From NCBI RefSeq assembly GCF_000971235.1, contig NZ_BBMB01000004.1:86988-150987 (forward strand): 64,000 bases of DNA, in the 5' to 3' direction. The stretch comes from Demequina subtropica. GTDB lineage: Bacteria > Actinomycetota > Actinomycetes > Actinomycetales > Demequinaceae. The notes beneath the pieces are model-generated. The model was not told the DNA's origin. It saw only the letters and a list, made by a program, of their open reading frames with translations, and did not search any database. How positions within the stretch are numbered: position 1 is the first letter of the stretch; each line of letters starts with the position of its first letter. Made by a program: the position numbers and the translations under genes. Of the stretch, positions 46,873 through 63,853 are shown one piece after another.

Positions 46873-47633
46873 CAGTGCCCCATCTCCTTCATGCGGTCGA
46901 GGACGCGCTCCGCGCTCGGCTCACGCATCTGGTCGACGATGCGGCCGTCCGCGAGGAACAGGACGCGGTCCGCGTACGACGCGGCCGACGGGTCATGCGT
47001 GACCATGACGATGGTCTGACCGAACTCCTTCACGGCGCGCTGCATGAAGCCCAGCAGCTCGGCGCCCGAGCGGGAGTCGAGGTTGCCCGACGGCTCGTCC
47101 GCGAAGATGAGCTCGGGGCGGGCGACGAGCGCGCGGGCGACCGCGACGCGCTGCTGCTGGCCGCCCGAGAGCTCGGCGGGAAGGTGCGTGAGGCGGTCGG
47201 CGAGGCCCAGGATGCCGATGATCTCGTCGAACCACGCGGGGTCGACCGGGCGGCCCGAGATGTCGAGCGGGAGCGTGATGTTCTCGCGCGCGGTGAGCGC
47301 CGGGATGAGGTTGAAGGCCTGGAAGACGAACCCGATCTTGTCGCGGCGGACCTGCGTGACCTTGTCCTCGGAGAGGCTCGTGATGACGGTGTCGCCGATG
47401 GTGGAGAGCCCTGCGGTGAGCCGGTCGAGACCCGCGAGCGTGTGCAGCAGCGTCGACTTGCCCGAGCCGGACGGGCCCATGATCGCGGTGAACTCGGCGG
47501 CGGCGATGTCGACGTCGATGCCGTCGAGCGCGCGGACGGCCGCGTCGCCGGTGCCGTAGTCCTTGGTGCCGCCGCGCATGGACGCGGCGACGGCGACGCT
47601 GGTCTCGGCGATCGTGGTGATGGTGGTGGTCAT
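46872..47633 (-). CDS. MacB-type ABC exporter ATPase 1
   Basis: A 253-residue LolD/MacB-type ATPase: Walker A GPSGSGKST, Q-loop FQAFNLIP, signature LSGGQQQR, Walker B LIFADEPSGNLDS, H-loop MVTHD. From residue about 15 it is nearly identical to ATPase 2. ATG 47633 has GGGAGG at good spacing. Confidence 0.95.
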   Translation of the reverse strand: MTTTITTIAETSVAVAASMRGGTKDYGTGDAAVRALDGIDVDIAAAEFTAIMGPSGSGKSTLLHTLAGLDRLTAGLSTIGDTVITSLSEDKVTQVRRDKIGFVFQAFNLIPALTARENITLPLDISGRPVDPAWFDEIIGILGLADRLTHLPAELSGGQQQRVAVARALVARPELIFADEPSGNLDSRSGAELLGFMQRAVKEFGQTIVMVTHDPSAASYADRVLFLADGRIVDQMREPSAERVLDRMKEMGH

Positions 47634-47718
47634 GGTGTCCTCCCGATGATGTCTGCCTCGGTCATCGTCGGTCGGAGGGGGTGGTCGGCACATCGGCCGC
47701 GCGCACGGTTTGTCCGGA

Positions 47719-47734
47719 TCGTCCGCATGGGGGA
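47719..47734. promoter_or_regulatory. Degenerate half-site of the LuxR-type motif
   Basis: TCGTCCGCATGGGGGA shares the left half TCGTCCGCA of the palindrome before exporter 2. It lies about 86 nt upstream of exporter 1 but lacks the right half and the 23-nt spacing. Confidence 0.25.
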
Positions 47735-47795
47735 AGGCCGGGGGTGTCGTGGGGGTTCTCCCTGCCCCCAGACATGGGGGGCGACCCCCACCGCC

Positions 47796-47890
47796 CGACA
47801 GTGCCAACGGATCCCGGACGGACGATGCGGCGTGTCGCCCGAGTTCCGTGCGACACGCCGGCGGCCCGGGACAAGGTCCGTTGGCGTTGT
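47796..47890. repeat. 95-nt nested inverted-repeat element, copy B
   Basis: Outer arms GACAGTGCCAACGGATC and GGTCCGTTGGCGTTGTC, inner arms GGCGTGTCGC and GCGACACGCC. It matches copy A (24579-24673) in length and plan. It occupies the middle of the 339-bp gap between the exporter gene pairs (47634-47972), which holds no gene. Confidence 0.65.
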
Positions 47891-47916
47891 CAGAGGGAGG
47901 GGAGGGGGTGGGGAGC

Positions 47917-47957
47917 GCGAAGGCCCCCGGGGAGCCGGGCTCCTCGGGGGCCTTCGC
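47917..47957 (-). terminator. Terminator of exporter 2
   Basis: A 20-bp stem (GCGAAGGCCCCCG with matching arm, one mismatch), 15 nt past the permease 2 stop on the minus strand. Confidence 0.85.
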
Positions 47958-47972
47958 CTTGTGCCGGCAGGC

Positions 47973-50507
47973 TCAGCCGTCGAAGGCGATGGCCTGCAGG
48001 ATGTCGAGCTTCGCCGCACGGCGCGCGGGCGACATCGCGGCCACCACGCCCGCGATGATGGCGAGCACCATGTAGATGCCCAGCCACGCCCACGGGATCG
48101 CCACGGAGCTGAACCCGAACTCCGCGAGCGCCTTCACGAGCGCGACGCCGAGGCCCACGCCCAGGATCATGCCGAGGATGGTGCCGAAGATCGCCATCAC
48201 CAACGACTCGATGCGGATCATGCGGCGCACCGACCTCCGCCGCACGCCGACGGCACGCAGCAGCCCGATCTCGCGGGTGCGCTCCGTCACGGACAGCAGC
48301 AGCGTGTTGGCCACGCCGAGGACCGCGATGATGAGCGCCGCGCCGAGCATGGCCGAGATCACACCGAGCAGCAGATCGATGAACTGGTTGGCGAACTGCG
48401 CGAGCTGGTCGGGGCTCGACAGGACCACGAGCGGGAAGTCCGCGGCGAGCGCCGACGTGAGCTGCTCCTCGGCGTCCGCCGGGTCGATGCCGTCGTCGAG
48501 GACCACCATCGCCTGGATGTAGTCGAGCTCGCCGAGCAGCTCCTCGCCCGTGGCCAGGTCGACCCACAGCGCCGCGTCGCCCTCGTTGAGGTACAGGCCG
48601 GTGACGGGAAGCGTGAGCGTCGCCTCGGGCCCCTCGATCGTCAGCTCGTCGCCCACCACGACCCCCAGCTCCTGGATGGTCGGGTCGATGAAGACGCCTC
48701 CGTCCATCGCATCGAAGTCGGGCTCGTTGTTGGAGTCGAACGCGGCGTCCGCGGTCTCCGGGTCGATGACCCCGAGCGCCCGCTTCTGCCCGTCGAGCAG
48801 CACGTTGCCCGTGGCGACCTCGGTGACGAAGTCGACGCCGTCCTGCTCGCGCAGGAGCTCGAGGGCGCCGTCCGGGATCGCTCCCTGCGTCGACAGCACG
48901 AAGAAGTCCGCCTCGGTCGTCGCGAACTGGTCGGTGACCACGCTCTTGAGCGACTCGGTGAAGGTCGACACCAGGGCGAGCAGCATGACGCCGATCATGA
49001 GCGCTGCGGCCGTGTTGGCGCTGCGACGCGGCTCGCGGCGGATGTTGTTCGCCGCGAGCTTGCCGTCGACGCGGAACACGCGCGTGAGGAACGCCTTGAG
49101 CCCGTAGGCGAGGGGCACGAGCACCTGCGCCGCGAGCAGCGTCACGCCGATGACCAGGACCATCGCGCCTGCGCCCACGAAGACGTAGGGCTTGGCCACG
49201 TCCATGTAGAGGCCGACGACGATCGCGAGCACGCCGAGCAGCGTGAGCGCGCCGCCGACGATGTTGCGCAGCCGCAGCGGCTTCTTGGACTCGGTCGCGG
49301 ACTCGCGAAGCGCCTCCATCGGGGAGATGGTCGAGGCGTGGATCGCCGGCATGAGCGCCGCGACGAGGGTCACGAGCGCGCCCAGCGTGTAGCCCCACAG
49401 GAGGGCGTCCAGGGGGAGCGTGACGGTGCCGAAGATGTTGCCCGACAGGGCCTCGACGAGCGCGGACAGGCCGAGCGCGCCGAGGTAGCCCAGCAGGATG
49501 CCCACCGTGGAGGCGACCACCGCGACGACGAGCGCCTCGAGCAGGATCATCGTGCGCAGCTGACGCCCGCTCACGCCGATGGCGCGCAGCAGGCCGAACT
49601 CGCGCGTGCGCTGCGTCACGATGATGCGGAACGTGTTGACGATGATGTACGAGCCGACGAACAGCGCGATGAGCGCGAAGGCGATCGCGAAGATGTCGAC
49701 GTACTGGAGGATGTCGTCGAGCTGCTCAGCCTGCTCCGCGGCCTTCGCCTCGCCGGTGAGCGCGCGCGTGTCCTCGGGGATCACCTCGGAGATCGCCTCG
49801 GCGACCTGCTCGCTGTCGGCGCCCTCGGCGGTGACCACGCTGATGGTCTGGAAGTCCTCGGAGCCCGCCAGCGTGGCGGCGTCCGCCTCCGTCATGTAGC
49901 CGAGCGTCGCCCCCTGGAGGGAGTTCGTCTCGCCGAACCGGACCAGGCCGACCAGCTCGAGCTCGGTGACACCGGTGTCGGTCGCGACCGCGACCCGGTC
50001 GCCGATCTCGTAGCCGAGCCGGGGCGCGGAGTCGAGGTCGAGCACGATCTGACCGTCGGACTCTGGCCCCTGGCCCTCGACGAGCGTCGCCTGATCGAGC
50101 TTCGGTTCGCCCGCCCAGTTGAAGAGCTGGCTCGGTGCGCCGCCGCCGGCCATGAGGTCCCCGGTGGGCTCGAAGTCCTTCGGGAGCACCGCGCCCATCA
50201 CCTGGATGGTGCCCTCCGCCCTCGCGACGCCGTCGACGGCCCGGACCGCCGCAAGGTCGTCGTGCGTGAAGACGGCGTCGGGCGCGGCGAACTGGTCGCC
50301 GTCCTCATCGGTCTCGGTCGGTGCCGGCTCGACGATGACGTCGGTGCCGGCGTAGATCTCGTCGAACAGCTGGTGGAAGCCGCCGGACAGGGCGTTCGTG
50401 AGCGTGAACGTCGCCGAGGCGAGCGCGACGCCGAGCGCGACCGCCACGGCGCTCAGGATGAGCCGCTTGGGGTTGTGCTTGACGGACTTGACTGCGAGGC
50501 GGAACAT
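47973..50507 (-). CDS. FtsX/MacB-type ABC exporter permease 2
   Basis: An 844-residue permease with the same plan as permease 1: N-terminal FRLAVKSVKHNPKRLILSAV, FtsX motif TFRIIVTQRTREFGLLRAIG, second-half RREPRRSANTAAALMIGVML, and C-terminal SVTERTREIGLLRAVGVRRR. ATGA overlap with ATPase 2. The extracytoplasmic domains diverge from permease 1 more than the membrane parts, suggesting different cargo. Confidence 0.92.
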   Translation of the reverse strand: MFRLAVKSVKHNPKRLILSAVAVALGVALASATFTLTNALSGGFHQLFDEIYAGTDVIVEPAPTETDEDGDQFAAPDAVFTHDDLAAVRAVDGVARAEGTIQVMGAVLPKDFEPTGDLMAGGGAPSQLFNWAGEPKLDQATLVEGQGPESDGQIVLDLDSAPRLGYEIGDRVAVATDTGVTELELVGLVRFGETNSLQGATLGYMTEADAATLAGSEDFQTISVVTAEGADSEQVAEAISEVIPEDTRALTGEAKAAEQAEQLDDILQYVDIFAIAFALIALFVGSYIIVNTFRIIVTQRTREFGLLRAIGVSGRQLRTMILLEALVVAVVASTVGILLGYLGALGLSALVEALSGNIFGTVTLPLDALLWGYTLGALVTLVAALMPAIHASTISPMEALRESATESKKPLRLRNIVGGALTLLGVLAIVVGLYMDVAKPYVFVGAGAMVLVIGVTLLAAQVLVPLAYGLKAFLTRVFRVDGKLAANNIRREPRRSANTAAALMIGVMLLALVSTFTESLKSVVTDQFATTEADFFVLSTQGAIPDGALELLREQDGVDFVTEVATGNVLLDGQKRALGVIDPETADAAFDSNNEPDFDAMDGGVFIDPTIQELGVVVGDELTIEGPEATLTLPVTGLYLNEGDAALWVDLATGEELLGELDYIQAMVVLDDGIDPADAEEQLTSALAADFPLVVLSSPDQLAQFANQFIDLLLGVISAMLGAALIIAVLGVANTLLLSVTERTREIGLLRAVGVRRRSVRRMIRIESLVMAIFGTILGMILGVGLGVALVKALAEFGFSSVAIPWAWLGIYMVLAIIAGVVAAMSPARRAAKLDILQAIAFDG

Positions 50508-51244
50508 CAGTGCCCCATCTGCTTCATGCGGTCGAGCACGCGGTCCGCGGTGGGCTCGCGCATCTCGTCGACGATGCGGCCGTCCGCGAGGAACAGGACG
50601 CGGTCCGAGTAGGACGCCGCCGACGGGTCGTGGGTCACCATCGCGATGGTCTGGCCGAACTCCTTGACGGCACGGCGCATGAAGCCGAGCAGCTCGGCGC
50701 CCGAGCGGGAGTCGAGGTTCCCGGAGGGCTCGTCGGCGAAGATGAGCTCGGGGCGTGCGACGAGCGCGCGGGCGACCGCGACGCGCTGCTGCTGGCCGCC
50801 GGAGAGCTCGGCGGGAAGGTGCGTGAGGCGGTCCGCGAGGCCCAGGATGCCGATGATCTCGTCGAACCAGGCGGGATCCACCTCGCGGCCTGAGATGTCG
50901 AGCGGCAGGGTGATGTTCTCCTTCGCGCTGAGCGACGGGATGAGGTTGAAGGCCTGGAAGACGAACCCGATCTTGTCGCGGCGCACCTGCGTGATCTTGT
51001 CCTCGGACAGGCTCGAGATCTGCTGCTCGCCGATCCACGAGTCGCCGGCGGTGAGCCGGTCGAGGCCCGCGAGCGTGTGCAGCAGGGTCGACTTGCCCGA
51101 GCCGGACGGGCCCATGATCGCGGTGAACTCGGCCGCGGCGATGTCGACGTCGATGCCGTCGAGCGCGCGGACGGCCGCGTCGCCGGTGCCGTAGTCCTTG
51201 GTGCCGCCGCGCATGGATGCGGCGAGCGTGACGGTGGTGGTCAT
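50507..51244 (-). CDS. MacB-type ABC exporter ATPase 2
   Basis: A 245-residue ATPase with Walker A GPSGSGKST, LSGGQQQR, LIFADEPSGNLDS and MVTHD. Nearly identical to ATPase 1 in protein and DNA over most of its length, a sign of recent duplication or gene conversion. GAGGGG precedes the ATG. Confidence 0.95.
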   Translation of the reverse strand: MTTTVTLAASMRGGTKDYGTGDAAVRALDGIDVDIAAAEFTAIMGPSGSGKSTLLHTLAGLDRLTAGDSWIGEQQISSLSEDKITQVRRDKIGFVFQAFNLIPSLSAKENITLPLDISGREVDPAWFDEIIGILGLADRLTHLPAELSGGQQQRVAVARALVARPELIFADEPSGNLDSRSGAELLGFMRRAVKEFGQTIAMVTHDPSAASYSDRVLFLADGRIVDEMREPTADRVLDRMKQMGH

Positions 51245-51356: not shown

Positions 51357-52019
51357 CTACGGACGCGGCGCGACGATGCCCGAGTCGTAGGCCTCGACCA
51401 CCGCCTGGACGCGATCGCGCACCCCCAGCTTGGTGAGGATGTGGCTCACGTGCGTCTTCACCGTGGTCGAGGACACGTAGAGCTCGGAGGCGATCTCCTG
51501 GTTGGACAGCCCGCGCGCCATGAGCCGCAGGACCTCGACCTCGCGGTCCGACAGGTCGCCGACCGCCTCGGGCGACGGCGCGGGATCCTCCACGGGAGGG
51601 GTGCGCGCGAACTGCTCGATCACGCGCCGCGTGACCTCGGGGGCGAGGAGCGCGTCCCCGGAGGCGACCACGCGCACCGCCGACACGAGCGCGTCGCCGT
51701 CGACGCTCTTGAGGAGGAACCCGGACGCTCCCGCGCGCAGCGCCTCGTAGACGTACTCGTCGTCATCGAACGTGGTGAGGATGACGATGCGCGCGCCGGG
51801 GTGCGCGGTCAGCACCTCGCGCGTCGCTGTCAGGCCGTCCATGCCCGGCATGCGGACGTCCATGAGGACCACGTCGGGTGCGTGCTCGGCGACGATGCGC
51901 GCCGCATCGGCGCCCGAGGTCGCCTCCGCGACCACCTCGATGTCGTCCTCGGACTCGAGGATCATCCTCAGACCCACCCGCACCATCGCCTGGTCATCCA
52001 CCAGCGCCACCCGGATCAT
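51357..52019 (-). CDS. NarL/LuxR-type response regulator
   Basis: A 220-residue regulator. The receiver domain has phosphorylated Asp in VVLMDVRMPGMDG (about residue 54) and the Lys near 105; the C-terminal LuxR helix-turn-helix is LSNQEIASELYVSSTTVKTH. Its ATG overlaps the kinase stop (ATGA). Immediately upstream of the exporter genes in direction of transcription, it likely controls them. Confidence 0.94.
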   Translation of the reverse strand: MIRVALVDDQAMVRVGLRMILESEDDIEVVAEATSGADAARIVAEHAPDVVLMDVRMPGMDGLTATREVLTAHPGARIVILTTFDDDEYVYEALRAGASGFLLKSVDGDALVSAVRVVASGDALLAPEVTRRVIEQFARTPPVEDPAPSPEAVGDLSDREVEVLRLMARGLSNQEIASELYVSSTTVKTHVSHILTKLGVRDRVQAVVEAYDSGIVAPRP

Positions 52020-53242
52020 CGTCCGCCCTTCGTCGTGGTGGTGGGCCGGTGGCCCACCTGGTCGTCGGTCGAGGGCAGCGTGGCGCGCACGCGGAACCCC
52101 CCGCCGGTCCGGGGCCCGTACTCGAGCGTGCCCCCGAGCGCGTGGACGCGCTCGGCCATGCCGCGGAGCCCGTGGCCCCCGCTGTGACGGGCGGCCTCGG
52201 AGATCACGCCACGGCCGTCGTCCTCGACCACCACCAGGACCCGGTCGGGCTCGCGCTCGACCCGGACCGTCGCCCGTGCGCCGGGCCCCGCGTGCTTCAT
52301 CGCGTTGGTGAGCGCCTCCTGCACCACGCGGTAAGCGTTGAGCTCCACGCCGGCGGGCACATGCGACGTGCCCACGATGCTGAGCTCGACCGGCAGGCCC
52401 GCGTCCTCGACGTGCTGGGTCAGGGCGGGGATCGCGGCCAACGCGGGCATCGGCTGCATCTCCGCGACCGCGAGGTCGCGCTCGGCGGTGTCGACGGCCT
52501 CCTGCTCGGTCGCGCGCAGCACGCCGATCATGCGCTGCATCTCCGACAGCCCGGTGCGGCCCGATGCCGCGATCGTCGCGAGTGCCTCGAGCACCCGCGC
52601 GTCGGAGTCCTTCGCGAGCCTGCGCGCGCCCTCGGCCTGGAGCGTCATCACGGTGATCTCATGCGCCACCACGTCGTGCAGCTCGCGCGCGATGCGGGCC
52701 CGCTCGGCGCGCACGGCGTCCTGTGCGACCACGCGCTGCGCCTGCTCGCGGCGCTCATGCTCGAGCTCGAGCACGGTGAGGCGCTCGCGGCGACGGAAGT
52801 CGACGAAGCCGAGCATCATGGGGACGATCACGGCGAGCGCGACGGCCACCAGCGACGTCCACGGGACGTGGTCCGTGTACAGCAGGCCCACCACGGTCCA
52901 GGCGAGGGCGATGGCCAGGACGGCGCCGCCATGCCTGAGAGCCGTCCGCCGCGGGGTGTACGCGGCGATGCCGTAGAGCGCGAGGTAGAGCGCGAACATC
53001 GCGGGCGTGTCCGCGTACCCGATGCCGACGGTCGCGGCCCACGGCAGCAGGATCGCCCAGAGCACGATGCGCGGGTACTGCTGGCGCCATGCGACGGGCG
53101 CGATCTGCGCGAGGATCAGCAGGAAGCCCCAGGAGTCGTAGGCATGGGCGGTGTCGGGGGCGGCGTGGACCCCGATGAGCGCGAGGATCAGCAACGCTGC
53201 CGCGATCGCGATGTCCCCCCAGCGAGGCGCCCTCACATCCAT
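52016..53242 (-). CDS. HisKA_3-type sensor histidine kinase
   Basis: A 408-residue kinase with about six membrane segments in the first 165 residues and no large outer domain, then the HisKA_3 site RARIARELHDVVAHE (phosphorylated His) and a HATPase domain (NAMKHAGPGA, VEDDGRG, GHGLRGMAERV). This intramembrane-sensing layout is like LiaS/DesK kinases. The leaderless ATG 53242 follows -10 TACGCT by 6 nt. Confidence 0.92.
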   Translation of the reverse strand: MDVRAPRWGDIAIAAALLILALIGVHAAPDTAHAYDSWGFLLILAQIAPVAWRQQYPRIVLWAILLPWAATVGIGYADTPAMFALYLALYGIAAYTPRRTALRHGGAVLAIALAWTVVGLLYTDHVPWTSLVAVALAVIVPMMLGFVDFRRRERLTVLELEHERREQAQRVVAQDAVRAERARIARELHDVVAHEITVMTLQAEGARRLAKDSDARVLEALATIAASGRTGLSEMQRMIGVLRATEQEAVDTAERDLAVAEMQPMPALAAIPALTQHVEDAGLPVELSIVGTSHVPAGVELNAYRVVQEALTNAMKHAGPGARATVRVEREPDRVLVVVEDDGRGVISEAARHSGGHGLRGMAERVHALGGTLEYGPRTGGGFRVRATLPSTDDQVGHRPTTTTKGGR

Positions 53243-53298: not shown

Positions 53299-53952
53299 TC
53301 AGCCGAGGAAGCGGTAGCCGACGCCGCGGACGGTCGTGATGGCGTCCGCGCCGAGGTGGGTGCGCAGATAGCGGATGTACACGTCGAGCACGTTGTCGCG
53401 TGCCGCCGAGCCCCACACCGCCTCGAGCGCCTCGCGGCGGGTGACGACCCGGTCCGCATGCGACATCAGCAGGTGCGCGAGCTGGAGCTCGCGCGGGCTC
53501 AGCGGTACGGGCTCTCCGTCGCATGCGAGCTCGCGCGCGACGGGGTCGAGCACGCATCGGCCGACGCGGAGCGTCGTGTCCTCCTCAGCGTCGTCCCGTC
53601 GGCGCGCGCGCAGCCGTATGCGCGCGATGAGCTCGTCGAAGGAGAACGGCTTGGGCATGTAGTCGTCCGCCCCGCGCTCGAGCCCTCGCACCGTGTCCTC
53701 GGCCGAGGTCCGCGCCGTGAGGATGATGACGGGCACGTCCGATCCGGCGGCCCGCAGCCGGCGGAGCACGGTGAAGCCTTCCTGGTCAGGCAGGCCGATG
53801 TCGAGGATCACCGCGTCGTGATCCGAGCCGAGGGCGGCGGCGAGGCCCTCGCGGCCGGTACGGGCATGGTCCATCGTGATGCCTGCGGTCCGCAGCCCGT
53901 CGCGCAGCGTCGCGACCAGGCGGTCCTCGTCCTCGATGAGCAGCACATGCAT
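53299..53952 (-). CDS. OmpR/PhoB-type response regulator
   Basis: A 217-residue regulator with receiver Asp in DAVILDIGLPDQEG (about residue 51), the IILTARTS strand and a C-terminal winged helix (DNVLDVYIRYLRTHLGADAI, TTVRGVGYRFL). ATG overlaps the kinase stop. Confidence 0.95.
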   Translation of the reverse strand: MHVLLIEDEDRLVATLRDGLRTAGITMDHARTGREGLAAALGSDHDAVILDIGLPDQEGFTVLRRLRAAGSDVPVIILTARTSAEDTVRGLERGADDYMPKPFSFDELIARIRLRARRRDDAEEDTTLRVGRCVLDPVARELACDGEPVPLSPRELQLAHLLMSHADRVVTRREALEAVWGSAARDNVLDVYIRYLRTHLGADAITTVRGVGYRFLG

Positions 53953-55355
53953 CAGGGCTCCCTCCAGGGGACTCGGATCCTGAACGTCGATCCCCGACCC
54001 GGCATCGAGTCGATATCGAGCGAGCCGCCGTGCGCATGAGCGATCGCGCCGACGATCGGCAGGCCCAGGCCGAGCCCCTCGGCGGAGGGATCGAGGCGGA
54101 CGAATCGCTCGCGGACGCGGAGGAGATCCTCGGGCGCGATCCCGCAGCCCTCGTCAGACACCCACAGGAGCAGCTCCTCGCCCAGGCGTGCGCTCCCGAG
54201 GCGCACGGTGGACCCCGGCTCCGAGAACTTCGCGGCGTTGGCGCCGAGCTGCAACCATGCCTGGGTCAGGCGCTGAGCATCGACGAGAGCATCGCCCGTG
54301 GCGCGCGCCTCGACGGTCCAGTCGCGACCGCCGAGCGCCGCCAGCCGTGCGGCGGCGGTATCGGTGAGGTCACCGATCGAGGCGGGGGCCAGGCGCAGGA
54401 ACTCGGGGCGGTCGGCCTTCGCGAGCGTCACGAGGTCCTCCACGAGCCGCGACATGTCCTCCGCGACGTCGAGCAGCTCGTCTCGCGTGGCCTCCACCTG
54501 CGTCGGATCGCGTGGCTCGAGGAGCTCGAGGCGCGCCCGGATCACGGTGAGCGGGGTGCGGAGCTCATGCGAGGCATCGTCGAGCATGCGGCGTTCGTCC
54601 ACGAACGCCTGCTCGAGGCGATCGAGCATCGCGTTCACCGTCTGCGAGAGACGCGCGAGATCGTCATCGCCCACGATCGGGACCCGTTGGCTGAGGTCGG
54701 TCTCCGTGATCCGTCGCGCGGTCCGTTCGAGCAGCCCGATCGGCTCGAGGAGGCGTCCGACCGTGAAGAAGCCGATCGCGCCGATCGCGCCCAGCGCGAG
54801 CGCCGCGACAATCGCGTAGACCGCGAACGTCTCCCGGAGCTCGCCGATGCGCGCACCCTCGTCGATCGCGAGGGCGAACACCGCGACGCGTTCGCCGTCG
54901 GCATCGAGGAAGGGGATCCCGGCGTACGCGTACGAGCCGCCCGAGGTCTGCGTGCGAACGGCCTTGACCTCGGTCGTGGTGTCCGTCCAGATGCGGTCGA
55001 CGAGCTCCGGGTCGTCCTCCAGGCGCAGCGTGCCCTCGCTTGCAGGGACGTACCGCGCGCGTCCGTCGATGATGGCGACCGCGCCCTCGTCGGCGGTGCC
55101 GGTGTACCGGCCGACGGCCTCGCGCATGAGCAGGTCGATGCCGGTCGGGTCGTTCTCGGCGATCCACCGCAGGTAGTCGTCGGCCTGTGCCGTGAGCTCG
55201 TCCACGGTGGCCTGCTCGACCACGTCGCGCTCGATGAGGAAGGCCGTGGTGCCGGCGACAGCGAGCGCGACCGCCGTGAGCGTCAGGAGGTAGACGATGA
55301 CCCGCGCACGGACGGATCCTGCGCGCGGGTGAGGCTGCCGGTCGCCTGAGGTCAT
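53952..55355 (-). CDS. Sensor histidine kinase, HAMP type
   Basis: A 467-residue kinase with two membrane segments (near residues 18-38 and 170-190) around an extracytoplasmic sensor, then HAMP, HisKA (MLDDASHELRTPLTVIRARL) and HATPase (DEGCGIAPEDL, GLGLGLPIVGAIAHAHGG). ATG 55355 has GGAAGG 5 nt upstream; GTG 55361 is the alternative start. Paired with the OmpR-type regulator and followed upstream by the acidic protein. Confidence 0.93.
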   Translation of the reverse strand: MTSGDRQPHPRAGSVRARVIVYLLTLTAVALAVAGTTAFLIERDVVEQATVDELTAQADDYLRWIAENDPTGIDLLMREAVGRYTGTADEGAVAIIDGRARYVPASEGTLRLEDDPELVDRIWTDTTTEVKAVRTQTSGGSYAYAGIPFLDADGERVAVFALAIDEGARIGELRETFAVYAIVAALALGAIGAIGFFTVGRLLEPIGLLERTARRITETDLSQRVPIVGDDDLARLSQTVNAMLDRLEQAFVDERRMLDDASHELRTPLTVIRARLELLEPRDPTQVEATRDELLDVAEDMSRLVEDLVTLAKADRPEFLRLAPASIGDLTDTAAARLAALGGRDWTVEARATGDALVDAQRLTQAWLQLGANAAKFSEPGSTVRLGSARLGEELLLWVSDEGCGIAPEDLLRVRERFVRLDPSAEGLGLGLPIVGAIAHAHGGSLDIDSMPGRGSTFRIRVPWREP

Positions 55356-55383
55356 CGTCACCTTCCGGCGTCACGCTACCGGC

Positions 55384-56025
55384 TCAGTCGTCCTCCTGCT
55401 CGTGCTCGCTGTCCGCGTCCTCCTGCTCGTGCTCGCCTGCCGAGGCGTCGTCCGAGATCGCGTGGTCGTCGTCTCCCGAGCCCTCCCGGTCGGCGTCCTC
55501 GGAGGCGTCCTCGGACTCGTCCGCTTCGCCGGCGGAGTCGTCCGAGCGAGGCACGGTGCCCAGCGTGGCGCTCGGCGGCGTCGCAGCAGCGTCGTGCTCG
55601 GCGCTGTCCTCGGAGGTGTCGTGCCCTCGCGAGCCGTCGTCGTCGGACTCGTCGTCCTCGCCTCCGGTCGGGCTCGGCACGGTTCCCAGACGCGTGTCGC
55701 CCGGGGGCAGCGCGACGCTGTCGTCCGCGGTGTCGTGGCCGCGAGCGTCGTCGTCGGCATCGTGATCGGGGCCGTCATCGTCGACGTCGTCGACCTCGGA
55801 GCTGTGCCGGATCTGCGTGGGGTCGTCGTTTGTCGCGTCGTCGGATCCCGTCGGCAGGGGAGAGGCGACGACGGCGTCGTCGAGGACGATGGCGCCGCCG
55901 ACCGTGGTGTCGGGCGACGGCTGCGAGCCGGCGCGGGACAGCGCGGTCGCGCCGACCCCGACGCCGACGAGGACCGCTGAGGCTGTGGCGATGGTCGCCG
56001 CGAATCGTGCCGCTGAGGTGTTCAT
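55384..56025 (-). CDS. Secreted, extremely acidic Asp/Glu/His-rich protein
   Basis: A 213-residue protein with an N-terminal signal or anchor segment (AATIATASAVLVGVGVGATA), then an acid-rich chain with His. An internal duplication is visible: ARGHDTADDS...RLGTVPS and SRGHDTSEDS...TLGTVPR, and EHEQED occurs twice at the end. No known domain. Such composition suggests binding of Ca2+ or other metal outside the cell. It precedes the OmpR-type kinase and regulator on the same strand with a 28-nt gap, so may be the target or sensor partner of that system. CTGGAG precedes the ATG. Confidence 0.82.
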   Translation of the reverse strand: MNTSAARFAATIATASAVLVGVGVGATALSRAGSQPSPDTTVGGAIVLDDAVVASPLPTGSDDATNDDPTQIRHSSEVDDVDDDGPDHDADDDARGHDTADDSVALPPGDTRLGTVPSPTGGEDDESDDDGSRGHDTSEDSAEHDAAATPPSATLGTVPRSDDSAGEADESEDASEDADREGSGDDDHAISDDASAGEHEQEDADSEHEQEDD

Positions 56026-56047
56026 AGCTCCAGCATCTGCTCGCTGG

Positions 56048-56065
56048 TCTGAGTGCGTCCTCAGA
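56048..56065. promoter_or_regulatory. Palindrome upstream of the acidic protein
   Basis: TCTGAG-TGCGTC-CTCAGA, a 6-bp perfect inverted repeat with 6-nt spacer, 22 nt before the acidic-protein start. Candidate binding site for the OmpR-type regulator, though these often bind direct repeats. Confidence 0.45.
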
Positions 56066-56627: not shown

Positions 56628-57719
56628 ATGGCGAAGCGCAGCCCGCTCGCGCCTCCGGTGCTGCCGGGGTACTCCTACGTGCGCGCCCTGGGGTCCGGCG
56701 GCTTCGCCGACGTGTTCCTGTACCGCCAGGACATGCCGCGCCGCGAGGTGGCCGTCAAGGTGCTCGAGAGCTCCGCCGTGAGCGCCGAGCTGCTCGACAA
56801 CGAGGTCGACGTGATGGCGAGCCTCAGCGCGCACCCGTCGATCCTCACCGTCTACGAGGCCTCCATCTCCGCGGATGGTCGGCCGTACATGGTGATGGAG
56901 TTCTGCCCGGGCTCGCTGAGCTCGCGCTACCGCGCCGAGCAGATCCCGATCGCGGAGGTGCTGTCGATCGGCATCCGCGTGGCGTCCGCGGTGGAGGCCG
57001 CGCATCGCGTGGGAGTGCTGCACCGCGACATCAAGCCGTCGAACATCCTCACCACCCAGTTCGGCCACCCGGTGCTCGCCGACTTCGGCGTCGCGGCGAT
57101 GATCGCGACCGTCGAGTCGGAGGACGTCGCGATGTCCGTGCCGTGGTCGGCGCCCGAGCTGGTCGCGCGCACGAGCTCCGGCTCGGTCGCCACCGAGGTG
57201 TGGGCCCTCGCCGCGACGGTCTACACGCTCGCCGCCGGGCGCACGCCGTTCCAGTCGCTCGACGGCAGGCGCGACGAGGCCTCGCATCGTGACCGGATCT
57301 CCAAGGCGAGGTACACGCCGCTGGGCCGTCCGGACGTCCCTCCGGCGCTCGACGCGGTGCTCGCGGGCGGCATGCGCCGCCTGCCGGGCGACCGCTACGC
57401 GAGCGCCGGGGCGTTCGCGGAGGCGCTCCAGCAGGTCGAGCGGGAGCTGGGGCTGCCCGTGACGTCGCTCGACATCCCCTCGAGCGGATGGGCGCAGCCC
57501 GCCCGGTCCGCCGGGGCCGGCGAGGCGCCCCGCGGTCCCGTCCGCTCCACCGTGCAGGTCGAGTCCAGGCGTACGCGCGTCGCGACCGGCGGCTCGGCGA
57601 GCGCGACCGAGCGCCCGCACCGCGCGTCGGGCCGCCGCGGCATGGTCGCGGGCACCGCGACGGGCGCGGCGATCGCTGCCGCGGGCCTCGCGGCGGCCGC
57701 ATGGTGGGTCCTGCTGTGA
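56628..57719 (+). CDS. Serine/threonine protein kinase
   Basis: A 363-residue Hanks-type kinase. P-loop GSGGFADVF, Lys in VAVKVL (about 44), catalytic HRDIKPSNIL (about 132), ADFGVA and APE are all present, so it should be active. A Pro/Arg-rich linker leads to one C-terminal membrane segment with almost nothing outside, so it lacks PASTA sensor repeats. GGGGGAAGGA precedes the ATG. Overlaps the next gene (GTGA), indicating a signalling link to the giant Ig-like protein and MoxR. Confidence 0.94.
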   Translation: MAKRSPLAPPVLPGYSYVRALGSGGFADVFLYRQDMPRREVAVKVLESSAVSAELLDNEVDVMASLSAHPSILTVYEASISADGRPYMVMEFCPGSLSSRYRAEQIPIAEVLSIGIRVASAVEAAHRVGVLHRDIKPSNILTTQFGHPVLADFGVAAMIATVESEDVAMSVPWSAPELVARTSSGSVATEVWALAATVYTLAAGRTPFQSLDGRRDEASHRDRISKARYTPLGRPDVPPALDAVLAGGMRRLPGDRYASAGAFAEALQQVERELGLPVTSLDIPSSGWAQPARSAGAGEAPRGPVRSTVQVESRRTRVATGGSASATERPHRASGRRGMVAGTATGAAIAAAGLAAAAWWVLL

Positions 57720-60700
57720 CGGAGCCCGCTGTCGGCCGCTACTCCGCGGCGCGCCGGGCGCGCGCCTGGCGTATCGGCGGCGGTGCGGCGTGCGTGGCGC
57801 TGGCAGCGGGCGTGGTGCTCGGTCCGGACTTCGACCAGCGCGAGGTCGAGTCCGTCGACCCCGGGGTCTGGGTGCTGAAGGGGGACGGGGACCACGCGCA
57901 GTACGGGCGGGTCAACACCACGCTCGGGGAGCTCGACACCTACAAGACCGTGGCGAACCCGGATCAGCTGGTGCAGCACGGGTCCGACCTGCTGGTCTAC
58001 TCGGAGCACCTCACGGCTGTGACGACCGTGGACCCGGGCCGGGCGACGGACATCGGTGAGGGCGCGACCACGGAGATGCCGGCCGGGGTCGCCGAGGTGC
58101 TGCACAGCGGCGACTTCGTGGCGTACCTCACCGAGGGCGGGGAGCTCTGGGGCGGCCGCGTCTCCACGATGCCCGACTCGCCGCCCGCGCAGGTCCAGGT
58201 GCCGGTGGGCGAGGACGAGGAGGCGTTCGCGGCCACCGCGGTCGCGCTGCGCGCGGACGGAACGTTGCTCGCGTACGCGCCGAGCGGGACGGGCGAGCGC
58301 GTCGCGCGCGCGTGGCTGGACGACCCGTCGCGGACGCCCGAGGTCACCGAGGTGTCGTACGGGCTCACCGAGCCCGGCACGGCGATGACGTTCGTCGGCG
58401 ACGGCTACGCGCTGTGGGAGCCGCCCGGCGAGGGCCAGGACAAGGGCGAGCTGTGGTTCGAGGACGCCGCCGGCCCGGTGGCCGTGGGCTCGGAGGGCGC
58501 CGTGCTCCAGCGGGACGGCGCCGAGGGGTCGGTCGTCGTCGCGGACAGCGAGGACCTCTGGCGGGTCGAGGTCGACGGCTCCACCGCGACGGGGTTGGAG
58601 GTCGGCTCCGACGAGTCCCTGGGCACCCCCGCGCGCCCGACCCTGGTCGACGGCGTCCTGACGGCGGCATGGGTCAAGGAGGGCACGGCCGGCGGCCTCG
58701 TCTGGCAGGCGGGAGGCGTCGAGAAGCCCCTCGAGGACGCGGCCACGCTCACGACCGGCGTCCGGCCCGTGATCCAGTCGAACGGGACGCGCGCCGTGCT
58801 CAACGAGACGGCATCGGGGTACGTCTGGACGCTCCCGGACGGCGACCTGGTCGAGTCCACCCTCGCGTGGGACCGCTCCGACAACGACGATCTCCCGAGC
58901 GAGGAGACCAAGGAGACCACGGAGCGGGTCCAGCAGGAGGAGGCCCCGGTCGCGGTGGCCGACTCGTTCGGCGTCCGCGCTGGACGGCAGGTCCGTCTGC
59001 CGGTGCTGCTCAACGACCACGATGCCAACGATGGCGACGTCCTGGCGGTGGACCCCGCATCGATCGACGGCACGCTCGACCCGGCCTTCGGTACGGTCGC
59101 GCTCGCCGAGGACGGCCAGGCACTGGTGGTCTCCGTCGCCGACACGGCGCCCGACGATGCGACCTTCACGTACCGGATCACCGATGGCGCGCTCTCGAGC
59201 CAGACGGCGGTGGTCACGCTGAAGGTCTCGCCCGAGGGGACGAACTCGCCGCCCTTGTGGTGCGGGGACGATCCGGGGTGCCTTGCCCTTGCCCCTGACC
59301 CCTCCGCATCCGTGCCCGAGGGGGGCTCGGCGCGCATCGCCGTCCTCGACGCGTGGGTCGATCCCGACGGCGACCCGGTCTACCTGGCGGCGGCCTCCGT
59401 GGACGAGCCCGGCGTGAGCGTCGTCGCGGCCAGCGACGGCACGCTCGCGGTCACGAACGCTCAGACGGACCTCGAGGCGGACTCCGCGGTGATCCAGTAC
59501 GAGGTCGCCGACGCGCGCGGAGAGGTGGGTCGGGGATCCGTGCCGCTCGCGCTCATGGCGCCGGCGTCGATCGCGACGGAGACCCTTGCGGTCCAGATCG
59601 CGGCTGGCACCTCGAGGACGGTCGACCTCGCCGGCCAGATCGCCGGCGCGATCGGGCCGGTCTCCGTCAAGCCCGGCAAGGCCGAGCTCAAGGGAGTGAA
59701 GGTCGCGAACGCGCATGGCGTGGTCGGGCTGAGGATCGACGTCGCGGAGTCCGCGTCCCTCGGGAGCTACGAGGTCGCGTACACGGCCTCCGATGGCGGG
59801 CCCGAGGTCGACGGTGTGCTCCGGGTCGACGTCGTCGATCCCGCGAAGGCGCTGATCTCCACCGTTCCTCTCACCGCCTTCGTCCGCGCCGGAGAGGACG
59901 TCACGATCGATGTCGCCGGGTCGGCCATCGACCCGCTGGGCCGGGTCCTCCTCGTGGAGGAGGTGGAGGCCGCGCCCCTCGAGTACACCGGCGCCTCGGA
60001 GGCGGGCGCGGTGCTGCAGACGACGCTGGGCCACTCCGTCGTGGACCTCGAGGCGGTGCGGGTCTGGGGCGCGAGGCCGGACGGATCCGCCGGCGTGCTC
60101 GGGACCGTGGCGTACACCGTGAAGGACGGGGAGCGCGAGGCTCGCGGCGAGATCACGGTCGTGCTGATCGATACCCCGGTCGAGGCGCCCGTGGCGGTCG
60201 CCGACGCCTTCACCGTCCGCGCGGGCACGCAGATGGACCTCACCGTCCTTGCGAACGATGCGGGCGCGCCGGGCACCGTGGTGGCGCTCACGGCTGGCTC
60301 CGTCGAGATCCCGGCCGAGAACGGCCTCGCCTTCACCTCCGGACGCGTGGTGCGCTATCTGGCGCCGCAGACCGCTGTCGCGCCGTTCGAGCTCACCTAC
60401 GAGACCTACGCCGTGGGCTCGCCGTCCAAGACGAGCACCGCGACGGTCACCATCACGGTGGTCTCGCAGAGCGACACCAACCACCCCCCCACGCCCAACG
60501 GCGTCTCGTCGCGGGTCAACGTGCGGCAGAGCGTCACCATCCCGGTGCCGACGGCCGGGCAGGACGTCGACGGTGATCGCGTGCGCCTGGTGAGCGTCGC
60601 CACGCAGCCGGAGCACGGCACCGCGACGCTCTCGGCGGACGGCAAGGCGCTGGTCTACACCTCCACGGGGGACAGCGCGGGACAGGACGGCTTCGACTAC

Positions 60701-63700
60701 CAGGTGACCGACGGGCTGGGCGAACCGGTCGTCGCTCACGCGAGCGTCGCGATCTCTGACTCCCCGCTCGGGGCGACCCCGATCACGTACACCGACTACG
60801 TCCAGGTCCAGGCGGGAGACGGCAACAAGGTGGTCGTCGAGCCCACGGCGAACGACACCGACCCGTTCGGCGGCGCGCTCACGCTCACCAGCATCGTGCC
60901 CGATGTGAGCGAGGCCCTCGACGAGTACGAGGAGCTCGCGGGCCACCTGACGACGGAACCAGGGTCCGAGCTGGTCACCTTCACCGCGGGGGACGAGCCC
61001 GCCACCTACTCGTACGTCTACGAGGCGCGGAGCGAGAGCGGCTCGGCCAAGGGCCGCGTGGTGGTCAAGGTCGTGCGTGATCCGATCCCGGACCTGCCGG
61101 TGGTCCAGGACACCGCGCTCTCCTTCCAGAACCGCGCCGACTTCGTGGGCGGCACGGACGTGCTCTCCGGCAAGGCCACGTGGGCGACGGGAGACGTGAA
61201 CCGGCTCGGCACCAGCGTGTACGCCGTGTACCAGGCCGCTGGTGAGACCACGGATGCCGCGTCGGTGACCGCGACGGACCGCACGCTCAGCGGCGCGCTG
61301 CCCGACCGCGACCTGCTGGTCGTGTTCGAGGTGACCGGCGTGGACTTCGCCGACGAGCCGACCGTCACCTACGGCTTCCTCAAGGTGCCGGGCGCGGCCG
61401 ACTACGTGCCGGCGCTCGACGCCGACGCCGAACCGGTGCAGGTCGACGAGGGCGCGACCGCGCCGTTCGACCTCGCCGCCATGGTGACCACCCCGCCAGG
61501 AGCGGACCTGTTCATCGTGGGTGCGGGCACCACCGGGACGCGTGGGGAGGCGGCCTGCGGCCGCGACCCCGAGAAGGGGGACACCTGGCTGACGTATGCG
61601 GCGGGCAAGGGCTCGCCGTACACGGACAACTGCGTCGTGTCGGTGCGCGTCGCGCTGACGGACGGCAGGAACGTGACCGGGGACATCGCCGTCCCGATCG
61701 TGGTGACGCCCGAGGACCCGGTGCCGACACTCGAGGGGTCGTCGGAGACGGTCGCCCTGGGTGATTCCGTGGGTCTGGACCTCGCGTCGCTGGTCACGTG
61801 GTCGGACGGCAAGGACCACGATCTCGCGCTCGTCCTCGACCCGTCGCCGAGCGACGACGTCACCTACGTGCGCCGGGAAGACCTCGTGACCTTTACGGTG
61901 GACGCCTCGGCCGCTCCGGAGTCGCAGGTGTCCCTGAACCTCACGGCGCAGGGGTACGAGGACGCGCGTGCGGTGGTCGCCGTGATCGTGGGCCCGGCAC
62001 CCACCACGCTCCCCAAGGGCGACGCCGTCGAGGCGACGTGCAGCGCCGACACGGGGAACCAGTGCGACGTCACGGTCATCGGCGGTCCCGGCGAGGTCAA
62101 CCCGCTGCCGACCACGGCGCTGGTGCTCGACGCCGTCTCCGGTGCGACGGGTGCGGACGCCTGCACGGGGGTGAGCTTCGCGAAGGTCCCCGGATCGACC
62201 ACGGCCATCCGCATGGCGTGGCAGGACCAGGCCCCCGGTGGGGACTGCGTCGCGCGCTTCAAGGTCCGTGACGCGCAGGGCCGGGTCTCGACCGATGCGC
62301 GCGACGGCACCCTGACCGTGCACTTCAGGGGCAGGCCCGCCGCCCCGACCGCGCTCACGCAGACCGCCTTCGCGGACGGATCGCTCACGCTCAAGGTGAC
62401 GGGGTCCACGGTCGAGTCCGTGCCGGCCGTCACGCACTTCCTCATCCGCGAGGGCGGCAACGAGGTCGCGCAGTGCGAGCCCGCCGGTGGCGAATGCACG
62501 GTGACGGTCGGCGGCCTCGTGAACGGCGATCGGCACGTGTACTCCGTGGTCGCGGTGAACCCGGTCGGCGAGTCGACGAAGGTGACCGCGGCCGCGGCGT
62601 GGTCGTATGCACCGCCGACGAGCATCGCGGAGGGTTCGATCGCGTGGGAGCCGACCGGCGACGGCACGGTCGACGTCACCGTCACCGTGGCGGATGCCTC
62701 GACGTCGCGCGTGCGGCTCTCCTGGTCCCACGGCGAGGTCTACGCGCCCGTGAACGGCAAGAAGGCGCAGTTCGACGGCATCGTGGTCGGCACGAACAGC
62801 CCCACCACCGTGAGCATCACGCCGGTCAACGACGGAGACGTCCCCGACGCCGCCGGCGACACCAACCCCTCGACCACCCCCGTGCCGATGCACGGCATCG
62901 GTGCCCCGAGGCTCGAGGTCGCCAAGACCGCCGACGGAGGCGCGGATGGCAAGGCGACATTCACGGTCACCGTGAGCGGGGGCGGCACCGATGCCAAGCT
63001 CTACTACGGCTGGAAGACCGGCGGCGGGGAGTGCACGCCGTCGCTGCAAGCATCCGCGGGCCAGGCCATCGCCGGGGTGGCGGTGCAGGGCTCGGTCAAC
63101 GAGGACAACACGGTCACCTTCTGCGCGGAGGCGCGGTGGAAGGCCGAAGGGAAGGCGCTCGGCACCGCCGCGCCCGTGTCCCACACGTTCTTCCCCAAGG
63201 ACGTCGAGGCGCCGGTGCTGTCGCAGTACAGCTGGGGCGTGCGGTGCGAGGGCGCCAGGTGCTGGACGGTCGCGGGCGGGACGGTCGCGGGCGGGACGGG
63301 CTCCGGCGGTGCGGCGCCCACGATCGTCGGTGACAAGCCCTCCGGGTACTCGTCCTACAAGCTCACCTACTTCGTCGACGGTGCCTCGACCGGCAGCAAG
63401 GACTTCCCGTGGGGGAGCATCGGTCCCACGACCGTCATCACGGCGCAGTACTGCCACACCGGCGGGAGCAAACCGATCTGCTCTGAGGACTCGGCGCCGG
63501 TGACCGCCGCCGTCCTCAACGGTGGGGCCGCCGAGGAGTTCGACTTCACGCTCGCGTGCGCGATGGAGCAGACCGCGCCCGCGGACGACGTCGCCGGCAC
63601 GCCGGCCTTCTTCGCGGCGGTCCTCACCCCGCAGACCATCACGAGCCCCTCCGGCACCACCGTCGCGTGGCGCTCCTACACCGACACGTTCGGCGCCGCG

Positions 63701-63853
63701 ACCGACGGCGGCGACTTCGCCGACCCGGGCGGACCCATCGCGGCGCTGCTCGACGTCACATTCGATCCGACGGTGGTCGGCAAGGGCGCCCAGGCCCTCA
63801 CCGTCACCTGCACCTATCCCGAGAGCACCGGCACCGAGGAGATCACGCCATGA
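57716..63853 (+). CDS. Giant membrane-anchored Ig-like/cadherin-like repeat protein
   Basis: A 2045-residue protein with one membrane segment (residues 18-36) and a long extracytoplasmic chain. The first 400 residues look like a beta-rich/propeller region. From about 410, repeated Ig-like (Big_9/cadherin-like) modules begin with APVAVADSFGVRAGRQ and recur as APVAVADAFTVRAGTQ and NHPPTPNGVSSRVNVRQ; a fibronectin III-like module lies near 1530-1640. Cysteine pairs occur in the C-terminal third. Starts and ends in overlaps (GTGA, ATGA) with the kinase and MoxR genes. Comparable genes head STPK-MoxR-DUF58-transglutaminase loci in other actinobacteria; function unproven, perhaps cell-wall sensing or adhesion. 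Confidence 0.88.
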   Translation: MTEPAVGRYSAARRARAWRIGGGAACVALAAGVVLGPDFDQREVESVDPGVWVLKGDGDHAQYGRVNTTLGELDTYKTVANPDQLVQHGSDLLVYSEHLTAVTTVDPGRATDIGEGATTEMPAGVAEVLHSGDFVAYLTEGGELWGGRVSTMPDSPPAQVQVPVGEDEEAFAATAVALRADGTLLAYAPSGTGERVARAWLDDPSRTPEVTEVSYGLTEPGTAMTFVGDGYALWEPPGEGQDKGELWFEDAAGPVAVGSEGAVLQRDGAEGSVVVADSEDLWRVEVDGSTATGLEVGSDESLGTPARPTLVDGVLTAAWVKEGTAGGLVWQAGGVEKPLEDAATLTTGVRPVIQSNGTRAVLNETASGYVWTLPDGDLVESTLAWDRSDNDDLPSEETKETTERVQQEEAPVAVADSFGVRAGRQVRLPVLLNDHDANDGDVLAVDPASIDGTLDPAFGTVALAEDGQALVVSVADTAPDDATFTYRITDGALSSQTAVVTLKVSPEGTNSPPLWCGDDPGCLALAPDPSASVPEGGSARIAVLDAWVDPDGDPVYLAAASVDEPGVSVVAASDGTLAVTNAQTDLEADSAVIQYEVADARGEVGRGSVPLALMAPASIATETLAVQIAAGTSRTVDLAGQIAGAIGPVSVKPGKAELKGVKVANAHGVVGLRIDVAESASLGSYEVAYTASDGGPEVDGVLRVDVVDPAKALISTVPLTAFVRAGEDVTIDVAGSAIDPLGRVLLVEEVEAAPLEYTGASEAGAVLQTTLGHSVVDLEAVRVWGARPDGSAGVLGTVAYTVKDGEREARGEITVVLIDTPVEAPVAVADAFTVRAGTQMDLTVLANDAGAPGTVVALTAGSVEIPAENGLAFTSGRVVRYLAPQTAVAPFELTYETYAVGSPSKTSTATVTITVVSQSDTNHPPTPNGVSSRVNVRQSVTIPVPTAGQDVDGDRVRLVSVATQPEHGTATLSADGKALVYTSTGDSAGQDGFDYQVTDGLGEPVVAHASVAISDSPLGATPITYTDYVQVQAGDGNKVVVEPTANDTDPFGGALTLTSIVPDVSEALDEYEELAGHLTTEPGSELVTFTAGDEPATYSYVYEARSESGSAKGRVVVKVVRDPIPDLPVVQDTALSFQNRADFVGGTDVLSGKATWATGDVNRLGTSVYAVYQAAGETTDAASVTATDRTLSGALPDRDLLVVFEVTGVDFADEPTVTYGFLKVPGAADYVPALDADAEPVQVDEGATAPFDLAAMVTTPPGADLFIVGAGTTGTRGEAACGRDPEKGDTWLTYAAGKGSPYTDNCVVSVRVALTDGRNVTGDIAVPIVVTPEDPVPTLEGSSETVALGDSVGLDLASLVTWSDGKDHDLALVLDPSPSDDVTYVRREDLVTFTVDASAAPESQVSLNLTAQGYEDARAVVAVIVGPAPTTLPKGDAVEATCSADTGNQCDVTVIGGPGEVNPLPTTALVLDAVSGATGADACTGVSFAKVPGSTTAIRMAWQDQAPGGDCVARFKVRDAQGRVSTDARDGTLTVHFRGRPAAPTALTQTAFADGSLTLKVTGSTVESVPAVTHFLIREGGNEVAQCEPAGGECTVTVGGLVNGDRHVYSVVAVNPVGESTKVTAAAAWSYAPPTSIAEGSIAWEPTGDGTVDVTVTVADASTSRVRLSWSHGEVYAPVNGKKAQFDGIVVGTNSPTTVSITPVNDGDVPDAAGDTNPSTTPVPMHGIGAPRLEVAKTADGGADGKATFTVTVSGGGTDAKLYYGWKTGGGECTPSLQASAGQAIAGVAVQGSVNEDNTVTFCAEARWKAEGKALGTAAPVSHTFFPKDVEAPVLSQYSWGVRCEGARCWTVAGGTVAGGTGSGGAAPTIVGDKPSGYSSYKLTYFVDGASTGSKDFPWGSIGPTTVITAQYCHTGGSKPICSEDSAPVTAAVLNGGAAEEFDFTLACAMEQTAPADDVAGTPAFFAAVLTPQTITSPSGTTVAWRSYTDTFGAATDGGDFADPGGPIAALLDVTFDPTVVGKGAQALTVTCTYPESTGTEEITP

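Follow-up and report, generated by a model that had tools for sequence, protein, structure and literature searches.

In a 64,000-nt stretch of the 3.08-Mb genome of Demequina subtropica (assembly GCF_000971235.1, contig NZ_BBMB01000004.1, positions 86,988 to 150,987; hereafter the window, whose own coordinates are used throughout), we have analyzed an operon on the minus strand in which the gene for an acidic low-complexity protein with predicted export (213 amino acids, 55384-56025) precedes those for a sensor histidine kinase (53952-55361) and its response regulator of the OmpR type (53299-53952). On balance, we regard this exported polyanion as the regulator's main product and the chief output of a three-gene signaling module, a reading that we consider narrowly probable. 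It is based on the order of the genes and its conservation, on an operator and the promoter geometry behind it, on the covariation of this operator with the regulator, and on further secreted genes that lie behind the same operator in related species. The kinase, of the type that pairs with OmpR-like regulators, has two transmembrane helices flanking an extracytoplasmic sCache/PAS-like domain and exceeds the Pfam gathering scores for HAMP, HisKA and HATPase_c; the regulator, whose gene overlaps the kinase stop codon by 1 nt, does so for the receiver (Response_reg) and the winged-helix DNA-binding domain (Trans_reg_C). These five domains agree with a preliminary description of this DNA, which had placed an OmpR-type two-component system next to an extremely acidic secreted protein at just these positions. 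The extreme acidity is likewise borne out by the composition of the protein, which has 44 Asp, 16 Glu, no Lys and 8 Arg residues, thus 60 acidic against 8 basic side chains, and a calculated charge of -51.7 at pH 7.

The pairing of acidic gene and kinase is widely conserved. The kinase has a match at E<=1e-40 in 28 of 44 genomes of the genus and is 75-76% identical to those of D. maris, D. rhizosphaerae and D. silvatica. Directly upstream of it, an acidic protein with a hydrophobic N-terminus is encoded in all 25 Demequina loci (the window and 24 orthologs of 49-76% identity), and no acidic gene precedes a paralogous Demequina kinase (40-44% identity) in the loci read (0/4). Within the class Actinomycetes, a kinase profile matched 72 of 246 genomes at E<=1e-75, giving 81 places including the window's own, and 69 of the other 80 were read upstream. 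An acidic protein of exported type precedes the kinase in 49 of these 69, for example in Geodermatophilus sp. DF01-2, often with long runs of Asp (45 in L140), as compared to a single case (L225) among 20 control kinases, which were picked by hand from six of the module-bearing genomes with a preference for short open frames that leave the kinase start clear. The link of the acidic protein to the adjoining kinase, which had been proposed from the one locus, is thus strongly supported by its co-conservation. One of the 49 (L177) is a doubtful, lipoprotein-like frame, while two loci at contig ends (L127 and L150) were counted as misses and L137 leaves no room for an operator; the acidity detector and its cut-offs were fixed after the first loci had been seen and were then left unchanged for the controls and the phylum draw. 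Across the phylum Actinomycetota, a sensor-domain profile matched 16 of 149 genomes, 10 of them outside the class, and 7 of the 11 regions read encode the acidic protein (6/9 outside the class), with an acidic tail cut by the contig end in an eighth; in this set, L255 comes from a genome already represented by L194, and L254 belongs to the same class. In one Demequina locus (L007, 520-939), a second, shorter acidic protein of exported type stands in tandem before the main one, and the operator there is degenerate.

The sequence of the acidic protein is far less constant than its place. A direct protein search found matches in only 10 of 47 genomes because the sequence past the N-terminus diverges fast. 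Common to the Demequina proteins are the signal or anchor segment and a following motif such as TVGGAIVL; a second form within the genus has added conserved cysteines (four invariant, 10 aligned) and often tails rich in Trp and Asp. The tails vary freely (poly-Asp, DEP, SPD or W-D repeats, and in some phylum members DEP, SPD, SAQ or GDD repeats) while the net charge stays negative, although its being negative in 48 of 48 class proteins (L177 excluded) is circular, since these proteins were found by their acidity. Neither Pfam nor NCBIfam has a match to the window protein at E<=0.001, which includes LTXXQ-type, RTX and EF-hand domains (0 Pfam families), and the protein is probably disordered.

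Upstream of the acidic gene lies the 18-bp palindrome TCTGAG-N6-CTCAGA (56048-56065; 6-bp arms, 6-bp spacer), which the preliminary description had noticed as a possible regulator site. By itself such a palindrome might arise by chance, but this one is kept in relatives at a fixed spacing. Among 27 loci (the Demequina set of 25 plus L113 and L116, with the start of L018 shifted to an in-frame downstream ATG), 25 have its core TGAG-N6-CTCA 38, 39 or 40 nt ahead of the start codon, as read on the strand of the acidic gene; L007 and L010 carry a degenerate operator with one mismatch at an unchanged position. In 25/25 loci, a -10 box of the form NANNNT, with A at the second and T at the sixth position, starts 26 nt after the start of the operator core. 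In the window this box is GATGCT (56032-56037, minus strand), likewise 26 nt from the start of the core, and the ATG follows it after 6 nt. As only 6-8 nt separate box and start codon, the acidic-gene message is probably leaderless. The operator is present in 23 of 25 Demequina and 38 of 69 class loci, but in none of the 20 controls, and occurs once in the window genome with one mismatch in 12 allowed. A second CTGAG-N6-CTCAG in this genome was rejected as a target, as it lies inside a long frame that by eye reads as a phosphofructokinase.

Outside Demequina the site takes a fuller form, GATGAGA-N4-TCTCATC-N4-TCTCATC; of the 38 class loci that have the operator, 32 show a third half-site 11 bp further along, as against 0 of 23 in Demequina, where the sites are pseudo-palindromic and resemble TCTGAGA-N4-TCTCAGA. 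The spacing of half-sites, 7+4, fits the direct repeats about 11 bp apart of OmpR/PhoB-type regulators, although the core itself is an inverted repeat. For PhoP of Mycobacterium tuberculosis, 7-bp half-sites 4 bp apart are described as direct repeats, three of which in a row are bound well (PMC4832192). The spacing is the same in both systems, while the PhoP sites are direct repeats, those of Demequina are pseudo-palindromic, and most of the others have the third half-site.

A further line of evidence comes from the regulators, of which 54 could be recovered from 58 loci. In Demequina, none of the 25 regulators of this operon has a DFD insert and all read NVLDVY; they are paired with CTGAG..CTCAG at 23 of 23 exact sites. 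Class-wide, the regulators carry VWG(Y/F)DFDPGSNVVDVY (DFDAQS in L141), and thus the DFD insert, together with NVVDVY, and wherever a class locus has a site (22 of 22), those with the insert pair with ATGAG on the left side. On the right, the flanking base at these loci is T in 19 of the 22, with C instead in L140, L147 and L148. Two of the same Demequina genomes possess paralogous kinases (L030, L031) with a regulator of the class type, and there the right flank is CTCAT; the operator of L114 is a hybrid, CTGAG..CTCAT. The flanks of the operator hence change with the recognition region of the regulator, which suggests that the two are tied to each other, although these counts are not independent, since the rows are related by descent. 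Taking conservation, promoter geometry and covariation together, we infer that the palindrome is an operator bound by the neighboring regulator, as had been surmised from the single sequence.

Similar elements were observed elsewhere in the genus. In eight Demequina genomes (L073-L080, at about position 1770-2050), the same operator is followed by a TA-type -10 box at the identical distance of 26 nt (8/8; sites were counted only in the orientation in which the box starts with TA) and by a similar leader, and the frame behind it in L073, L076 and L077 is, by eye, a tyrosyl-tRNA synthetase. A known leader RNA was considered for these sites and discarded, as five of the eight loci were scanned with 0 Rfam matches at gathering scores. 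Another element, CTGAGCGATCGCTCAG, is conserved in six Demequina genomes (G010, G015, G019, G020, G023 and G024; e.g. L090:1991); as it contributes to a longer hairpin in L090, the one locus that was read, it is probably terminator-like rather than an operator.

We propose that the kinase reads an extracytoplasmic cue through its sCache/PAS-type domain and phosphorylates the regulator, which would then bind TGAG-N6-CTCA at the -35 position and activate the promoter of the acidic gene, the only gene found with a strict operator in the window genome. From a message that is probably leaderless, the acidic protein would be made, exported by means of its N-terminal signal or anchor, and form a disordered polyanion outside the membrane. 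There it would most likely add fixed negative charge to the cell surface and thereby retain cations or cationic compounds or keep them away, or protect the envelope. Binding and activation by the regulator, export and unfolding of the protein and the role of its charge are, in this scheme, predictions drawn from the sequences.

That the polyanion is rather an output of the system is indicated by the regulon members in relatives. The extended pattern TGAGA-N4-TCTCATC is present in 20 of 20 genomes, which had been chosen for having the module, while a reversed control pattern is found in none of the 20; from 10 of these genomes, 20 regions were read. Within roughly 2 kb beyond the regulator, a secreted-type low-complexity protein is encoded behind a site in 7 of 7 regions of this kind (L286, L292, L294, L295, L297, L298 and L299). 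In two genomes, the operator precedes a gene for a poly-D/G protein, which in L291 has a C-terminal hydrophobic stretch with an RRFR tail and in L296 is a relative; the identical 16-base site is present in 7 of 8 g50 genomes, with a variant in L296. Further genes behind the operator encode a UDP-glucose dehydrogenase in three genomes, divergent from an APH-type gene (Pfam-checked in L287; L304 and L305 have the same frames), and a glycosyltransferase of family 2 (L289). In L288 the site lies before a subtilase gene, with a small secreted-type protein encoded divergently, and in L293 it precedes a lipoprotein-like frame that contains a run of Asp. In genome G180 (L303), an additional acidic protein has its own operator and a further operator stands before a related response regulator; thus, a single genome can carry the module in duplicate.

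Several observations do not fit a regulator devoted to a polyanion. Not every product encoded behind the operator is acidic; exceptions are the Ser/Ala/Pro and Asn/Thr repeats, the subtilase, the APH-type kinases and a LuxR/STAND-like ATPase frame (L290), and some sites have no convincing target (L302). Five Demequina versions of the protein (L012, L014, L018, L024 and L026) are weakly acidic, with net charges of -9 to -21 over 168-256 residues. Among the class loci, no acidic gene was detected in 20 of 69, and 19 of the 49 with an acidic gene lack an exact operator. Against a strictly leaderless message stands a GGAG or GAGG that in some loci, including the window's, lies 2-4 nt ahead of the start codon.

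More tentatively, and with less confidence than we have in the role of the Demequina protein, it might be hypothesized that an Actinomycetota-wide family of sCache kinases and OmpR-type regulators, marked by TGAG-N6-CTCA, regulates surface charge or the envelope. Its outputs would be disordered proteins outside the membrane in which selection acts on length, charge and disorder rather than on sequence (poly-Asp, DEP, SPD and NTA repeats), joined in some lineages by the synthesis of anionic sugars, while a membrane-tethered copy encoded before the kinase would close the loop.

The strongest rival explanation, which we consider unlikely though well worth weighing, is a feedback accessory: tethered to the membrane, the acidic protein would touch the kinase with its transmembrane segment and a juxtamembrane motif while its anionic tail senses or titrates the signal, much as MgrB acts on PhoQ, YycH/YycI on WalK or CpxP on CpxA. 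Such a feedback role would agree with the constant position of the acidic gene before the kinase across the phylum, and expression driven by the regulator would create a feedback loop. It would also agree with the hydrophobic-x-hydrophobic motif that lies 10-21 residues past the end of the transmembrane segment in 66 of 67 assembled proteins (25 from Demequina and 42 picked from the class and phylum loci), as compared to 45% in shuffled segments; in the window protein the motif is contained in the conserved juxtamembrane segment TVGGAIVLDD (residues 41-50; 55876-55905, minus strand). Structural modeling of the kinase points in the same direction. The full-length model (predicted local distance difference test score, pLDDT, 84.5) returned kinase cores in a fold search, and the sensor was therefore folded separately (AlphaFold pLDDT 91.7); an alignment of the sensor domain (A4) used 21 of 31 sensor segments. 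The modeled ectodomain has an sCache/extracytoplasmic PAS fold and is closest to the extracellular domain of Staphylococcus aureus WalK (Z 11.0, 3.5 Å, 125 residues, 7% identity), followed by TlpB (Z 10.6), KinD (Z 9.5) and CusS (Z 8.9); with identities of 7-11% among the listed matches and Z scores above the usual best of 7-8, these matches indicate the fold, not the ligand. Speaking against such a partner, the operator stands shortly before kinases for which no acidic gene was detected in 8 of the 38 class loci with an operator and in 3 of 4 Demequina paralogs, and this type of kinase therefore works without the acidic protein. In addition, secreted low-complexity proteins of a similar kind are encoded behind the operator at unlinked places, a better fit to an output. 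Output and feedback roles can both be true.

Systems with exported accessory proteins provide a framework for this comparison. YycH and YycI are large folded accessory proteins of WalK, CpxP and ZraP are folded LTXXQ-type helical periplasmic accessory proteins, with CpxP acting on CpxA, and HbpS is a folded redox/haem protein. The WalK-YycH/YycI system (PDB 9a5d) resembles ours in the sCache-type ectodomain, its nearest fold, and in having membrane-anchored accessory proteins on the WalK side. CpxP and ZraP are alike in being exported proteins of two-component systems under control of the regulator, but the acidic protein has no LTXXQ match in Pfam. In streptomycetes, HbpS is a secreted protein that works with the sensor kinase SenS and the regulator SenR (PMC4991794), and thus another actinobacterial secreted protein with a kinase-regulator pair; the Demequina protein differs in being acidic and of low complexity. 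MgrB, a small membrane protein, acts on PhoQ near the membrane, and its expression is increased by the OmpR-family regulator of that system (PMC10576120, PMC7808668). The operon described here shares with MgrB-PhoQ/PhoP a small membrane protein tied to an OmpR-family system, its control by the regulator being predicted from the operator and the promoter geometry; MgrB, however, comprises 47 amino acids, while the present protein has a long, mostly acidic tail whose sequence changes freely, is encoded in an operon with the kinase, and makes only a putative contact with it.

Returning to the polyanion as output, other functions for its charge appear still less probable than a role as kinase partner. 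The preliminary description suggested a buffer or sensor for a metal or cation; on this view, Ca, Mg, Zn or Mn bound by the tail would be reported to the kinase. We consider this improbable, even though the 60 carboxylates of the window protein are joined by 8 His residues and the CusS (silver-bound) and CzcS sensor domains are among the fold matches of the ectodomain; the best curated match of the kinase, the NCBIfam model TIGR01386 for heavy-metal sensor kinases (CzcS/CusS/SilS), is likewise suggestive but lies far below its cut-off (147 versus 293 bits). The acidic protein matches no Pfam family, both the sequence and the composition of the tail vary freely, and neither His nor Cys is common to all; that tails of like charge are unrelated in sequence speaks against a single, defined site for a metal. 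We attach little credence to a decoy against cationic antimicrobials, by which a kinase sensing membrane-active cations would induce a polyanion that soaks them up. The net charge of about -52 would suit this task, and the UDP-glucose dehydrogenase and glycosyltransferase behind the operator in relatives could make an acidic polysaccharide, but no resistance-type transporter is among the genes read behind the sites. Finally, a coincidental low-complexity frame beside an ordinary two-component system, conceivable as spurious open frames are many in GC-rich DNA, is hardly credible in view of the conservation of N-terminus, position, promoter and charge across the phylum and of the nearly all negative controls.

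It is known that two-component systems can have exported accessory or feedback proteins. By contrast, the titles and abstracts of the matches listed in the open-access literature describe no exported protein, acidic or rich in Asp, that is linked to a system of this type or to its operator, which is weak evidence of novelty. CutRS was rejected as the same system, since its site is TAWATAAA (PMC12802291), and passages of PMC10433416 and PMC6629963 contain no such accessory protein. Low-complexity acidic proteins are easily missed by annotation, and a conserved operator makes them findable and assigns them a regulator. Should our reading hold, it would define a signaling system widespread among actinobacteria, read out simply through a single promoter in the Demequina genome studied here and through a small regulon in other families; stimulus and function would then be directly testable, and it would be a clean case of selection on charge and disorder rather than on sequence. 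The recurrence in many actinobacteria points to a little-noticed management of charge or stress at the cell surface.

With regard to the features of the window protein, residues 1-28 (55942-56025, minus strand) form a predicted signal peptide or membrane anchor that ends in the AxA-like ATA, the boundary as well as hydrophobicity and AxA motif being judged by eye. An AxA pattern was matched in 64 of the 67 acidic proteins, but is too lax to mean much for cleavage versus anchoring. The repeats noted in the preliminary description are present and exceed chance by a 5-mer shuffle test. RGHDT (55729-55743 and 55615-55629), LGTVP (55675-55689, in a VALPPGDTRLGTVP context found in some close relatives, and 55549-55563) and the C-terminal EHEQED (both repeats within 55390-55434) each occur twice on the minus strand, and four 5-mers with at most three acidic letters are repeated, as compared to a shuffle mean of 0.22, a number reached in 3 of 5000 shuffles. 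In contrast, an ungapped self-alignment, the cruder test, gave a score equaled in 68 of 500 shuffles, which is not significant, and the two units are out of register, with 38 residues between the copies of RGHDT and 42 between those of LGTVP. As, in addition, the second unit is absent (by eye) from the Demequina orthologs compared, the duplication looks local to D. subtropica.

Between the acidic gene and the kinase, a recurrent -10-like box, TAGCGT (55373-55378, minus strand), was noted by eye in the Demequina intergenic sequences, which suggests that kinase and regulator may also have a promoter of their own. Just downstream of the operon, the window encodes a NarL-type two-component pair (51357-53209), and beside it two adjacent ATP-binding cassette transporter units (44323-51244) which, by eye, consist of large FtsX-like permeases and ATPases. 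The divergent neighbor on the plus strand (56628-63853) comprises, by eye, a gene resembling Ser/Thr protein kinases followed by a very long frame of 2121 amino acids (57488-63853), which resembles a surface protein.

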